DNA of 11,883 nt from Brevundimonas sp. GTDB lineage: Bacteria > Pseudomonadota > Alphaproteobacteria > Caulobacterales > Caulobacteraceae. The stretch spans positions 1-11,883 of the forward strand of contig JANJTI010000332.1 in assembly GCA_024711185.1 (NCBI GenBank), in the 5' to 3' direction. Shown one piece after another: positions 5,329-11,005 of the stretch; the stretch's first letter is position 1; each line of letters starts with the position of its first letter. The position numbers were made by a program, and so were the translations under genes. Under the pieces are notes generated by a model, which was not told the origin of the DNA, ran no database searches, and saw only the letters and a list, made by a program, of their open reading frames with translations.

Positions 5329-5970
5329 TCAGTCGTCCAGCAAGGCGCGCGCGCGGAGGAACACGGCTTCGAACATCCCGGCGGTGAGCCGACCGGTGTT
5401 CGTGTTCAGCCGCGAGCAGTGGTAGCTGTTCAGCAGCACATAGGGCCCGACCCGCCCCTCGGCCCCATGACCCGCCGGCATCGCCGAGGCCGGGCGCCCG
5501 AGCGCCCGCAACACGTTCCGGCGCGACACGTCGCCGAGGGTCACGATCACCTTCAGCCGGGGCAGGGCCTCCAGCCGCGCCTGCAGGAAAGGACGGCAGG
5601 TCGCCTCCTCGACCGGCAATGGCTTGTTGCCGGGCGGGGCGCAGCGCACGGCGTTGGTGATCATACAGTCGACCAGCACCAGCGAGTCGTTACCATCAGG
5701 ATCGTAGCCGCCGCGCGCGAAGCCGGTGCGCTGCAGGGTTTCGTAGAGCAGCCAGCCGGCGTGGTCGCCGGTGAACGGGCGGCCCGTCCGGTTGGCGCCC
5801 GTGCGGCCCGGCGCCAGCCCGGCCACCAGCAGCCGCGCCTGCGGATCGCCAAACGAAGCCACGGCGCCGTTGAACCAGCCCGGCGTGCGCTGCTCGTTCT
5901 CGCGCCGGTACTCGACCAGCCGCGGACATAGCGGGCAATCGCGCGGCGCTTCGGGTGGCGCAGCGCTCAC
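5329..5970 (-). CDS. Uracil-DNA glycosylase, family 5 (UDGb-like), iron-sulfur type
   Basis: Base-excision-repair enzyme removing uracil (and, in family 5, often other deaminated bases) from DNA. It has 213 residues. Motif I GLAPGRTGANRTGRPFTGD spans 51-69 and motif II YHCSRLNTNTGRLT spans 183-196. Both are typical of family 5 in alphaproteobacteria and unlike the Asp/HPS pattern of classical Ung. Four cysteines, C12 and C15 (CPLC), C110 and C125, fit the [4Fe-4S] ligands known in families 4 and 5. Start is GTG at 5970; a stop codon lies three codons upstream in frame and no better start exists. The GTG overlaps the TGA of the preceding NYN gene (GTGA on the minus strand), so the two are very probably translationally coupled. 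No classical ung is visible here. Confidence 0.92.
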   Translation of the reverse strand: MSAAPPEAPRDCPLCPRLVEYRRENEQRTPGWFNGAVASFGDPQARLLVAGLAPGRTGANRTGRPFTGDHAGWLLYETLQRTGFARGGYDPDGNDSLVLVDCMITNAVRCAPPGNKPLPVEEATCRPFLQARLEALPRLKVIVTLGDVSRRNVLRALGRPASAMPAGHGAEGRVGPYVLLNSYHCSRLNTNTGRLTAGMFEAVFLRARALLDD

Positions 5971-7092: not shown

Positions 7093-7451
7093 GCGCTCTG
7101 GCTGCGATCCTGAGCGCCGCGCTTGCCCAGGACGCGGCGCCACGCGATCCGCGGGAATGGGCGTCGCCGGATCCGAATGTGCGATTCGCCGAAGGCAGCG
7201 CGCTCACCGACGTTCCACCCCGGGGGCGATGGTCGGGCCGTGCCAGTGTGCATGTCCGATGCGTTGTCGCGGCGGATGGTCAACTCCGGGAGTGCGAGGT
7301 CGTTCGGGAGACTCCGCGGGGAGCCATCTCGCCGCGGGACGCGCGACGAGCGTTCCGCAATGCGCGGCTTGAGATGACCGAGGACGGACCGCAGCCGGGC
7401 GACGCCGTGACGTTCGAGATCGTGGTGACCCAGCGACTGGCCTTCCGCTGA
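7089..7451 (+). CDS. Exported TonB C-terminal-like domain protein
   Basis: A 120-residue protein with a short hydrophobic N-terminus ([14 protein letters not shown]) that looks like a cleavable Sec signal with an ALA-Q site. The segment [25 protein letters not shown] (54-78) matches the first strands of the TonB C-terminal fold as seen in 'energy transducer TonB' proteins of Caulobacterales. It is followed by a helix (DARRAFRNA) and a final strand ([11 protein letters not shown]). C58 and C69 could form a disulfide in the periplasm. It lacks both the proline-rich linker and, if the signal is cleaved, the membrane anchor of a working TonB. ATGA overlap with folK indicates co-translation. Its codons (more CGA, GAT, GTT) look less optimised than those of its neighbours. 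The domain call is by pattern only; function unknown. Confidence 0.75.
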
Positions 7452-7475
7452 CGCCTCATTCCCGCCCATGCGGCG

Positions 7476-7504
7476 TTGCACAATCGGCTGCAAATCTCTA
7501 TTTT
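7476..7504 (+). promoter_or_regulatory. rpoZ: Promoter-like sequence for the rpoZ-RSH operon
   Basis: TTGCAC (7476-7481), a 17-base spacer and TATTTT (7499-7504) make the best sigma-70-type match in the window, in the 85-base gap before rpoZ. Transcription would start near 7511, giving a 5' leader of about 26 bases. A 5-bp inverted repeat, TTGCA (7476-7480) and TGCAA (7489-7493), overlaps the -35 element. Confidence 0.55.
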
Positions 7505-7536
7505 CCGCGGTTCTCCCCCGCCGCCCGAGGATTTTC

Positions 7537-7896
7537 ATGGCTCGCGTCACTGTCGAAGACTGCATCGAGAAGGTGCCGAACCGTTTCGGTCTGGTCCTGC
7601 TGGCCGGTCACCGCGCCCGCAATATCGCCAACGGCGCGCCGCTGACGCTCGACCGCGACAACGACAAGAACCCGGTCGTGGCCCTCCGCGAACTGGCCGA
7701 GGACACCGTCACGCCGGCGGACCTGCAGGAAAACATCATCACCACCCTGCAACGCGTCGACGAGCGCACCGAAGCCGAGGACGAGGCCGAGACCGTCGCC
7801 CTGCTGGCCGAGCCGCAGCACATGAACATGGCCGAGGCCGAGCTGATCCGCGCGCTGCAGAGCGACCGCGACGGCGGGCAGGAGGAGCGGTACTGA
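7537..7896 (+). CDS. rpoZ: DNA-directed RNA polymerase subunit omega
   Basis: Omega subunit of RNA polymerase, which helps fold and hold beta-prime. It has 119 residues, normal for alphaproteobacteria. The N-terminus [30 protein letters not shown] and [20 protein letters not shown] are diagnostic; the acidic C-terminal tail ([18 protein letters not shown]) is variable. Residues 2-4 after the initiator Met are A-R-V, the MAR-type motif that contributes to ppGpp site 1 in E. coli, so this polymerase may use the same site. Start ATG at 7537 has GAGGA five bases upstream (7527-7531). The frame is open upstream to 7468, but those residues precede the conserved start and overlap the promoter. The TGA stop overlaps the CTG codon that begins the RSH protein. 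Confidence 0.97.
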
Positions 7897-10187
7897 CGGC
7901 GGACCCCGCCAGCGGTGTCACCATCCTGCCGGCGCGACAGCCCGCGCCGACCCCCAAAGCTGCCAACCTGAACGAGCCGGACGGCGCTGCGCCGCCGCCG
8001 GCCGCGCCCGAACACGCGGGGCGCAGCAAGGTCCTGCGCCAGTTCGAACTGGTCGAGGCCGTCAAGGCCTACGATCCGACCGCCGACGAGGCCCTTCTCA
8101 ACCGGGCCTATGTCTATGCGATGAAGATGCACGGCTCGCAGCTGCGGGCCTCGGGCGATCCCTATTTCGCCCATCCGATCCAGGTCGCCGGCATCCTGAC
8201 CGACTACCGGCTCGATACGGCGACCATCGTCACCGCCCTGTTGCACGACGTCGTCGAGGACACCTCGGCGACCCGCGACGACATCGCCGACATGTTCGGC
8301 GAGGAGGTCGCCCAGCTGGTCGAGGGCGTCACCAAGCTCTCCCGGCTGGAGTTGCAGGCCGAGCACACGCGCCAGGCCGAGAACCTGCGCAAGTTCATTC
8401 TCGCCATCTCGAAGGACGTGCGGGTCCTGCTGGTCAAGCTGGCCGACCGCCTGCACAACATGCGCACCCTGCGCTACGTCAAGCCGGAGAAGCGCGAGCG
8501 CATCTCGCGCGAGACGCTGGAAGTCTACGCGCCGCTGGGCCGCTCGATCGGCATCCACTCGATCGCCTCCGAGCTTGAGGAGCTGGCCTTCGAGCACCTC
8601 AACCCCACGGCCCGCACCGCCATCGAGCGACGGCTCGAGGCGCTGAAGCTCGAGCACGGCCGCGCCATCGGCGGGGTGTCGCGCGAGATCGAGCGGGTGC
8701 TGGAGGAGGCGGGCGTCAAGGCCCGGGTGCTGGGCCGCGAGAAGACGCCCTATTCGATCTGGCGCAAGCTGCAGCGCAAGTCCGTCGGCTTCTCGTCCCT
8801 GTCCGACATCTACGGCTTCCGCGTCATCGTCGAGGCCGAGGACGACTGCTACCGCGCCCTCGGGGTCATCCACCGCGCCTGGCCCGTGGTGCCGGAGCGG
8901 TTCAAGGACTTCATCTCGACGCCCAAGTCGAACAACTACCGTTCGCTGCACACCACGGTCGTGGGGCCGTCGGGCCTGCGCATCGAGATGCAGATCCGCA
9001 CCGAGGCCATGGACCGGGTGGCCGAGGACGGGGTGGCGGCGCACTGGGCCTACAAGAACCACGCCTACGGTTTCGACCGCGAGGCCATGGCGGCCCAGGG
9101 CGGTCGCGACCCGCTGCAGAACCTGCGCCACCTCGTGCAGGTCATCGAGCACGGCGAAGGCGGCGAGGACTGGGTCGAGCACGCCAAGCTCGAGATGTAT
9201 CTCGACCAGGTGTTCGTTTTCACGCCCAAGGGGGCGCTGATCACCCTGCCGCGCGGCGGCATGCCGCTGGACTTCGCCTACGCCGTCCACACCGAGGTCG
9301 GCGATTCCGCCGTGGGGGTGAAGATCAACGGCGAGCTGAAGCCGATGCGCACCCAGCTGCAGAACGGCGACGTGGTCGAGATCATCCGCGGGGCCAAGCG
9401 CGAGATCCCGTCGGACTGGCGCTCCCTGACCATCACCGGCCGCGCCCGCTCGGCCATCCGCCGCCATATCCGCAGTTCCGAGCGCGAGGAGTTCCAGAAG
9501 CTGGGCCGCGCCACCCTCGACCAGACCCTCGCCCGCGCCGGCAAGGCCCTCTCCGAGGTGTCTCTCAAGCCGGCCCTCGAGACGCTGGCGATGGCGACCG
9601 AGGACGATCTGTTCGAATCCATCGGCCGCGGCCGCATGTCCGCCGCCAAGGTCGGCGAGACCCTGTTCCCAAGCCTGAAGGGCCGCCTCAAGGCCGGGCC
9701 GGACCGCAAGCGAATCGGCGATGACCAGGCGCGCCTTTTCGTCCGCGGCGGCGGCCTGACCCCGGGGGTCAGCGTCCACTTCGGCCACTGCTGCTCGCCG
9801 GTCCCGGGCGACCGCATCGTCGGCATCCTCGAGCCGGACGTCGGCCTGACCGTGCACACCATCGACTGCCAGCGGCTCGCCGACTTCGCCGACGACGATT
9901 CCGTCTGGCAGGACCTGCAGTGGACGCCGCAGGCGGAGCAGGGCGCCGTCGCCGCGGCTCGCCTGCGCGCCACCATCAAGAACGCGCCGGGCGTGCTCGG
10001 CCAGGTGGCCACCATCATCGGCGAGGCCGGCGGCAACATCCTCAATCTCGTCATGACCCACCGCCAGCAGGACTTCTTCGACGTCGACATCGACGTCGAG
10101 GTCGAGGACGCCCGCCACGCCACCACCATCATGGCCGCGCTCCGCGCCAATCCCTCCGTGGACACCGTCGAGCGGGCGCGCGGGTGA
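7893..10187 (+). CDS. spoT: Bifunctional (p)ppGpp synthetase/hydrolase (RSH; apparent CTG start)
   Basis: Long RSH protein that makes and degrades the alarmone (p)ppGpp; 764 residues from the proposed start. The hydrolase HD site is intact: H94, H118-D119, E122-D123, D185 and N189. The synthetase keeps [19 protein letters not shown] (336-354) and E365/Q367 in EMQIRT. Then come the TGS domain ([33 protein letters not shown]), a zinc-finger-type domain with C633-C634, H655 and C659, and a C-terminal ACT domain (about 690-764). Both activities are predicted. No ATG, GTG or TTG occurs in frame between the TTG at 7476 and the ATG at 8121, which lies inside the HD domain. CTG at 7893 has AGGAGG seven bases upstream and forms CTGA with the rpoZ stop. 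The first 46 residues are an Ala/Pro-rich extension. Also called rsh or rel. Confidence 0.95.
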
Positions 10188-11005
10188 GCGAGGACGCCGG
10201 CCCCGGCAACGCCGCCCAGATGGCCTCGCCTTCCTACCGGCTGGCGGCGCTGGACCAGGACTTCCTGCTCGGCGACTCCATGCGCGGCGTGCGCTTCCTG
10301 ATGGAGTACGCCAAGGCCGAGGAGGCGCTGCGCGCCTGGGGCGTGCGCTCCACCATCGTCGTGTTCGGCAGCGCCCGGACCGAGGAGAACGGCGACCCCC
10401 TGCACCGGCGCTGGTACGGCGCCGCCCGCGACTTCGGCCGCATCGCCTCGGAGCGCGGCGGGGCCCTGCGCGCCACCCCCGGCGAGCCGCGCGACAACGT
10501 CATCGCCACCGGCGGCGGCCCCGGCGTCATGGGCGCGGCCAACCGGGGCGCCTACGACATCGGCGCCCCGTCCATCGGCTTCAACATCACCCTGCCGCAC
10601 GAGCAGGAGCCGAACCCCTGGTCGACCCCCGAGCTGACCTTCCGTTTCCACTACTTCGCCATGCGCAAGATGCACCTGGCGATGCGCGCCAACGCCCTGG
10701 TGGTCTTCCCCGGCGGCTTCGGCACCTTCGACGAGTTGTTCGAGATCCTCACCCTGCGCCAGACGCAGAAGGCTCCCGACATCCCCGTGGTGCTGTTCGA
10801 CGAGACCTACTGGCGGTCCGTCATCGGCTTCGACCATCTGGTCCAGCACGGCATGATCGCCGCCCGCGACCTCGACCTGATCAGCTTCGCCGAGGACGCC
10901 GAAGGGCTGTGGGCCGAGCTGCTCCGTCGTGGCCTGCGGCCGGGCCATCCCTCGGTCCCCGATCCGCGGCAGCCCGCCCTTCAAAGCCGGAGCGTGACGG
11001 GGTAG
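10184..11005 (+). CDS. LOG-family (TIGR00730-type) nucleotide phosphoribohydrolase
   Basis: Rossmann-fold protein of the LOG ('lysine decarboxylase-like') family. Characterised members hydrolyse nucleoside 5'-monophosphates or cytokinin nucleotides to base plus ribose-5-phosphate; none is known as a lysine decarboxylase. It has 273 residues. Diagnostic motifs are GGGPGVM at 110-116 and PGGFGTFDE at 176-184, with E184 in the catalytic position; the [23 protein letters not shown] segment is typical of the longer bacterial members. Start is taken as GTG at 10184 because it overlaps the RSH stop as GTGA; ATG at 10220 (261 residues) is a possible alternative, and neither has a strong Shine-Dalgarno. 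It lies 11 bases before pyrE. The true substrate cannot be read from sequence; the name 'cytokinin riboside phosphoribohydrolase' would be over-specific. Confidence 0.92.

Follow-up and report, generated by a model that had tools for sequence, protein, structure and literature searches.

A CUG codon within the rpoZ stop codon as the probable start of the RelA/SpoT homologue in Caulobacteraceae

In Escherichia coli the rpoZ gene, which encodes the omega subunit of RNA polymerase, is followed by spoT. Another E. coli gene, infC (initiation factor IF3), combines an AUU start with mRNA structure and translational coupling, and its rare start codon serves the autoregulation of IF3. Four-nucleotide stop-start overlaps associated with termination-reinitiation have been described (PMC6728339, PMC10666635), with the NTGA form, a Shine-Dalgarno (SD) sequence inside the upstream gene and both genes on the same strand. 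Structure of the mRNA at the stop codon is also thought to govern re-initiation: stable structure just after stop codons, the ribosome termination structure (RTS), was reported in 2020 to be scarce at junctions that profit from re-initiation and frequent at those where it acts as an insulator (PMC7518266). Natural CUG starts are known in bacteria (PMC4117421, PMC5622118, PMC11497404): CTG accounts for 0.7% of the identified starts in Caulobacter crescentus (PMC4117421), only 2 switches from an ancestral AUG to CUG were counted among 61,358 across 36 triplets of related genomes (PMC5622118), and AUG, GUG and UUG all give more stable initiation complexes than CUG does (PMC11497404).

Here we analyse the junction of rpoZ with the gene of a RelA/SpoT homologue (RSH) in Brevundimonas sp. 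(assembly GCA_024711185.1, contig JANJTI010000332.1) and in its relatives. The window, i.e. the whole stretch of 11,883 nt that was analysed, is contig 129 of a fragmented MAG (374 contigs, 78% complete). The features relevant to the junction are the following:

7537..7896, + strand: rpoZ, omega subunit of RNA polymerase, 119 aa, with the C-terminus GGQEERY followed by the stop codon TGA (PF01192, TIGR00690)
7880..7885, + strand: AGGAGG, Shine-Dalgarno-like, within the final rpoZ codons, 7 nt 5' of CTG
7893..7895, + strand: CTG, very probable start codon of RSH (by comparison); its C doubles as the wobble base of the final rpoZ codon (TAC)
7893..7896, + strand: CTGA, 4-nt stop-start overlap of rpoZ and RSH
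7893..10187, + strand: RSH, putative RelA/SpoT-type alarmone (ppGpp) synthetase/hydrolase, 764 aa counted from CTG (domain matches)
7893..8030, + strand: N-terminal extension of RSH, 46 residues, a LTAEPANGITILPAR-like start conserved in most of the genus and then a variable Ala/Pro-rich linker
7877..7930, + strand: predicted mRNA hairpin (fold prediction and synonymous randomisation)
8121..8123, + strand: ATG, first canonical in-frame codon 3' of CTG (codon 77), which would truncate RSH if used
10184..11005, + strand: next reading frame after RSH, whose GTG start and the RSH stop overlap as GTGA; its product presumably belongs to the LOG/lysine-decarboxylase-like family

The letters at 7876-7896, i.e. 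the junction in the window, read GGGCAGGAGGAGCGGTACTGA, and the RSH gene lies in the -1 frame relative to rpoZ. With the domain order HD_4, RelA_SpoT, TGS, RelA_AH_RIS, ACT_4 and a TIGR00691 score of 658 bits (cut-off 499), the product is a long RSH, putatively both a synthetase and a hydrolase. A preliminary description of the window had proposed the CTG at 7893 as the RSH start, and both the AGGAGG (7880-7885), 7 nt ahead of C7893, and the CTGA overlap with the rpoZ TGA on which it drew are indeed present. Elsewhere in the window, for which it mentioned similar junctions, there is a GTGA at 10184-10187, and on the minus strand two genes overlap by 4 nt (5967-5970), an NYN-domain gene that ends at 5967 and a gene of the uracil-DNA-glycosylase superfamily that starts at 5970.

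The likeness of this locus to infC lies in the conserved non-canonical start of a central gene; what sets infC apart is that its codon is tied to the autoregulation of IF3. With the described overlaps (PMC6728339, PMC10666635) it shares the NTGA form, the SD inside the upstream gene and the co-directed genes. Those papers treat ATGA and TGATG, whereas the putative RSH start is a CUG that most of the family has fixed, that folding predictions place in a hairpin stem, and whose coupling to rpoZ we infer; the available text of PMC6728339 contains neither CTGA nor CUG, and that of PMC10666635 neither CTG nor CUG. The common element with the RTS (PMC7518266) is mRNA structure at a stop codon thought to govern re-initiation, but the RTS sits just downstream of the stop, whereas the stem predicted here includes the overlapping start codon. 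A natural CUG start is shared with the cases in PMC4117421, PMC5622118 and PMC11497404, and against the rarity of AUG to CUG switches (PMC5622118) stands one RSH CUG held in 20 of the 22 genera examined. CUG starts and stop-start overlaps are both known, while a CUG overlap fixed family-wide is unusual.

The RSH frame of the window contains no ATG, GTG or TTG from the TTG at 7476 to the ATG at 8121; these two, 139 codons 5' of CTG and at codon 77, respectively, are the nearest canonical codons, in agreement with the preliminary description. As it had also pointed out, initiation at ATG 8121 would sacrifice a conserved stretch of 28 residues and part of the HD domain, namely five residues at the beginning of the HD_4 match (residue 72 onwards). 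Among 165 loci with CTGA (see below), 150 lack any canonical codon in the stretch from the upstream in-frame stop to CTG (one of them is bounded by the contig end instead of a stop), and in the other 15 the nearest upstream canonical codon is at least 111 codons away. On the downstream side, the first canonical codon lies past the RQxEL pattern of the conserved core in 70 of 164 loci, including the window, and the conserved N-terminus of RSH is there beyond the reach of any canonical start. In the remaining loci it falls into the linker (67/164), at most two codons before RQ, i.e. at the MLRQ position (25/164), or within eight codons of CTG (2/164); downstream starts may be possible in those species where it lies in the linker or at the MLRQ position. 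Codon 47 is GTG in the close relatives L007 and L008 and GTC in the window, hence that GTG is not a conserved start.

The stretch following CTG is, by its substitution pattern, evolving as protein in the RSH frame. Within the genus, pN/pS for codons 2-15 is 0.67 in this frame versus 1.18 and 1.38 in the other two, and for codons 2-9 in the other genera it is 0.76 versus 0.99 and 1.01; differences in linker length preserve the frame in all 165 loci but one (L144). In this single g11 locus CTGA is present and the RSH core follows the linker in another frame, owing either to an erroneous indel or to a start that has genuinely changed. A protein search with the N-terminus alone returned the query as the sole match.

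The database gene models mostly place the start elsewhere. In 236 of 240 listed database proteins (two lists of 120, one for the window RSH and one for a Caulobacter query) RSH begins at a position other than CTG. Among the 120 matches listed for the window RSH, whose gene models omit the 46-residue extension, a motif check found none beginning at CTG, while 4 of the 120 listed for the Caulobacter query do so (P0148 with V, P0153, P0166 and P0193 with M as the first residue). P0166 is the NCBI model of the RSH from Phenylobacterium soli and is identical to the translation from CTG at every residue after the first; the CTG start of RSH has therefore been annotated at least once. In P0148, P0153 and P0193 the first V or M stands at apparently the same position, as judged from the protein only. 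Many of the listed proteins begin one or two residues ahead of RQ (38/120 for the window query and 63/120 in the second list), and this, together with the lack of CTG starts in the first list, is what one would expect if RSH started further downstream, at the GTG or ATG of MLRQFEL or at another codon, and the conserved stretch after CTG were untranslated or had a role only as RNA. We regard this as quite improbable, since the database starts are scattered (16 distances plus 13 proteins that lack a match to the RQxEL pattern, in the window-query list), 70 of the 164 genomes, the window included, offer no canonical codon before RQxEL, and the stretch evolves as protein in a frame that the linker indels respect. 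On these three grounds a downstream canonical codon was rejected as the general start of RSH. The CTG at 7893 is the only plausible RSH start in the window and very probably the actual one, as the preliminary description had proposed: the in-frame CTGA is conserved, the coding signal follows it directly and no canonical codon would be workable. As for the published record, the start codon is not mentioned (0 occurrences) in the available text of two papers on Caulobacter spoT (PMC4848567, PMC12186491), and we found no published Caulobacter spoT start or rpoZ-spoT coupling in a literature consisting mostly of papers outside subscription, without supplements.

RSH was found in 100 of the 101 genus genomes and in 118 of the 119 that make up the family sample. 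The junction DNA was parsed for part of the genomes, yielding 175 loci, of which 174 have the RSH core and 172 have both the core and rpoZ. CTGA occurs at 165 of these 172 junctions and in 20 of 22 genera (genera assigned by our own mapping, with L144, the sole g11 locus, counted though it is out of frame). The seven junctions devoid of CTGA are those of all six Asticcacaulis (g14) genomes and of one distant genome (L158, g16). In a pattern search, the rpoZ end GGNCARGARGANCGNTACTGA (TAC-TGA) was matched in 349 of 390 family genomes, while the same end with T, A or G instead of C (the TADTGA form) was found in none of the 390; the pattern leaves RSH unchecked, and in the g14 genome G215, which counts among the 349, the ATG of RSH is located further downstream. 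The 41 genomes lacking a match comprise 24 from g14, four from g13, g16 and g17, and 13 scattered over g1, g2, g6 and g22. Among 80 loci with titled records, an in-frame CTGA was found in 40, including Brevundimonas, Caulobacter and Phenylobacterium, the remaining 40 being mostly from outside the family; seven more of the 80 have a CTGA out of the RSH frame (six outside the family and one from Hyphomonadaceae).

Chance is excluded as the origin of the junction because it is conserved (349/390 with TAC-TGA and 0/390 with T, A or G). The same counts dispose of the main alternative named in the preliminary description, a sequencing error that turned A or G into C, and likewise of such an error in assembly. 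The fragmented state of the window genome (374 contigs, 78% complete) might have suggested such an error, but a comparison of the junction across relatives, of the kind proposed there as a check, gave C in 349 of 390 family genomes, single-contig genomes included, and another base in none; CTGA stands at 165 of the 172 junctions parsed, and 40 of the 80 loci with titled records have it in frame. The error was therefore rejected, its probability being practically nil.

The omega to RSH order is the same as in E. coli and extends to the outgroup families, where a same-strand rpoZ match was found 5' of RSH in 42 of 43 loci (some of the matches being weak). An in-frame CTGA was not observed in the 43 outgroup loci, drawn from four other families of the order, and many of them have an ATG or GTG a few bases past the rpoZ stop. 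In Asticcacaulis rpoZ and RSH are apart, with no overlap, and RSH starts with ATG; the junction of A. benevestitus (L318) is the same as that of the g14 genome G209 (L188). The N-terminus of the Asticcacaulis RSH, MSAEG or similar, resembles by eye the LSPEG/LTAEP of the CTG-started proteins. The Asticcacaulis loci (L149-L154, L187-L211) have a long spacer between rpoZ and RSH, and the N-terminal linker contains Pro-rich repeats (ETPPxDPP-like) in several genomes.

RSH might also be made as a -1 frameshift fusion with omega, and the RSH frame is indeed open upstream through rpoZ in some genomes, including the window, with an SD-like sequence before the junction. An in-frame stop is nevertheless encountered at a median of 43 codons upstream (minimum 7), and the last 20 rpoZ codons of the 165 loci contain zero in-frame -1 slippery heptamers. 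This candidate was rejected on the latter ground, and we consider it very improbable.

The overlap restricts the first base of RSH. The last residue of omega in the 165 overlapping loci is Tyr (TAC) in all but two, which have Phe (TTC). An A or G at the first base of RSH would turn the last Tyr codon into a stop, hence only CUG or UUG are left if omega is not to be shortened. A T at this wobble position would be silent for omega and would give a TTG start; none was seen. The terminal Tyr site shows 0 inferred changes in 129 taxa, compared to a median of 8 over 14 two-fold pyrimidine sites, among which it is the sole site with none, and Tyr codons elsewhere in the sampled rpoZ/RSH stretches are TAT (449) more often than TAC (243). 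In the outgroup family f3 the last wobble base of omega is C in 6 and T in 6 of 12 loci. On the other hand, all 24 matched Asticcacaulis genomes (22 of them with confirmed rpoZ), which lack the overlap, retain TAC, so the C may have a reason other than the CUG start. Selection for C over T at the wobble position may thus be at work, with the lack of changes in the overlapping taxa speaking for it and the Asticcacaulis TAC against it. The Glu codon at rpoZ position -4, which forms part of the SD, reads GAG in 127 of the 131 taxa that have the overlap, and 23 of 24 Asticcacaulis use GAA; this codon shows 4 inferred changes versus a median of 19 across 19 two-fold purine sites, three of which have at most 4. 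By this comparison, the SD tracks the overlap. All codon-change counts were made on those loci whose rpoZ is free of gaps, which are 134 of 155 and include 131 with the overlap.

The junction is predicted to fold into a hairpin in which positions 7889-7895 (GGUACUG, including the CUG) pair with 7913-7919, an outer stem joins 7877-7885, i.e. most of the SD, to 7921-7922/7924-7930, and an inner stem joins 7898-7902 to 7906-7910. The overall fold stability in the window is ordinary (z -0.89). Over 54 loci (every third), the predicted openness is 0.33 for the SD and 0.20 for the start, versus 0.46 in SD-offset control windows. We compared the pairing of the start with downstream bases in the native sequences and in synonymous randomisations, in which RSH codons 2-17 were redrawn according to the codon usage of the group. 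In Brevundimonas the predicted CUG pairing is 0.77 for native sequences versus 0.40 for the randoms, with 40 of 86 loci in the top 5%, and in the other genera it is 0.85 versus 0.46, with 28 of 62 loci in the top 5%; native pairing exceeds random in 18 of 19 genera, g3 being the exception. When every second overlap locus was taken, the start was in the top 5% for 22/48 (genus) and 12/33 (others), while six control codon positions reached this level in 0-7 of 33-50 loci. In the same test the SD pairing is ordinary in both sets, and the total energy is ordinary in the other genera and slightly unusual in the genus. The ATG starts of Asticcacaulis show no excess (0.35 versus 0.35 random, 1/15 in the top 5%; 15 distinct loci of 31), and the outgroup ATG starts show a milder one (0.47 versus 0.34, 5/20; 20 hand-picked loci of 43).

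At the wobble position of RSH codon 6, the genera other than Brevundimonas have A in 47 of 65 loci versus 1.9 expected, third-base A being rare in these genera (5.7%), and it gives a CAG opposite the CUG. Among the 16 distinct loci lacking this A, 13 still pair the start above random (mean 0.70 versus 0.37).

The column-wise covariation is weak. RNAalifold and the covariation scores were run on subsets selected for collinear N-termini, which favours structure (64 of 81 genus and 44 of 63 other sequences; the genus list itself had been pre-filtered by motif, with 93 loci kept). The consensus helix from RNAalifold leaves out the start codon. The covariation score is equalled by shuffled 3' letters in 48/500 and 54/500 cases, the 5' arm being nearly invariant, and sliding the partner by +1 column outscores the proposed structure (0.068 versus 0.058; 0.117 versus 0.047). 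In an arm-swap test, the predicted start pairing in the family set is 0.85 for native, 0.82 for same-class and 0.73 for different-class arms, a small effect, and in the genus set it is 0.77, 0.75 and 0.75, respectively. A search of Rfam 15 with positions 7400-8200 gave 0 matches at E-values up to 1. RSH codons 13-15 of Brevundimonas (CCG GCG CGG, window 7929-7937) have G as the third base in 99, 97 and 83 of 99 loci; RNAalifold pairs them with rpoZ bases further upstream, and they may form the outer arm of a longer helix.

The weak covariation and the ordinary stability would agree with a hairpin that is a side effect of the coding sequence and of base composition, without any function, RSH starting at CTG and any coupling being due to the overlap and the SD only. 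This is a possibility to be kept in mind, but an unlikely one, given the excess over synonymous randoms, the wobble A of codon 6 and the disappearance of the signal where the overlap is gone. What is new here is the suggestion, from modelled folds, that the choice of synonymous codons keeps the CUG paired in a predicted hairpin, a feature absent from Asticcacaulis. The preliminary description had made no mention of a hairpin.

The data show the position of the start by genome comparison, its conservation, the SD and a predicted CUG pairing beyond synonymous expectation, and we think it likely that RSH in the window and in nearly all Caulobacteraceae examined starts at a CUG within the rpoZ stop (CUGA) and is translationally coupled to rpoZ. 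We envisage that the hairpin would hold the CUG paired and that free initiation would be poor, the codon being both weak and base-paired. A ribosome terminating rpoZ at UGA would cover the AGGAGG, its passage would have melted the hairpin, and it could restart at the CUG one base back. Most of the RSH would then come from ribosomes that have only just terminated on rpoZ, presumably at a low output, and the amount of the alarmone enzyme would be tied to that of omega. The preliminary description had conjectured that the weak start keeps the RSH level low and might make it sensitive to IF3 proofreading. Omega binds ppGpp in E. coli (PMC5811629), and by analogy the coupling may serve to connect the alarmone enzyme with one component of the machinery it targets.

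The depletion of RTS where re-initiation is useful (PMC7518266) implies that the hairpin could damp re-initiation, which speaks against coupling. The CTG would then still be the start, with the hairpin acting as an insulator that reduces re-initiation by ribosomes coming from rpoZ and RSH being begun at a low rate by fresh ribosomes; the reported insulating role of structure just past stop codons (PMC7518266) and the strong SD are compatible with this. We find it improbable, as the pairing occurs together with the 4-nt overlap and is absent in Asticcacaulis, where the genes are apart, and as coupled pairs usually combine an overlap of this size with an SD (PMC6728339). The CUG itself may have been selected as a weak codon locked with its complement (CUG-CAG), making RSH strictly dependent on ribosomes from rpoZ and fixing a low RSH:omega ratio, and the codon may also sense the status of initiation factors. 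We put this forward tentatively and regard it as rather doubtful; in its support, no UUG was encountered, although it would leave omega just as unchanged and TAT is the commoner Tyr codon elsewhere.

Caulobacter SpoT has been studied for its role in regulating growth and the cell cycle. If the CUG start is true, the N-terminus is wrong in 236 of the 240 listed database proteins, and fusions, complementation constructs and residue numbers derived from such entries would miss dozens of residues along with the native start region. The CUG held across 20 of 22 genera, together with the counter-example of Asticcacaulis, would make this family a natural system in which to ask under what conditions bacteria deliberately retain a poor start codon.
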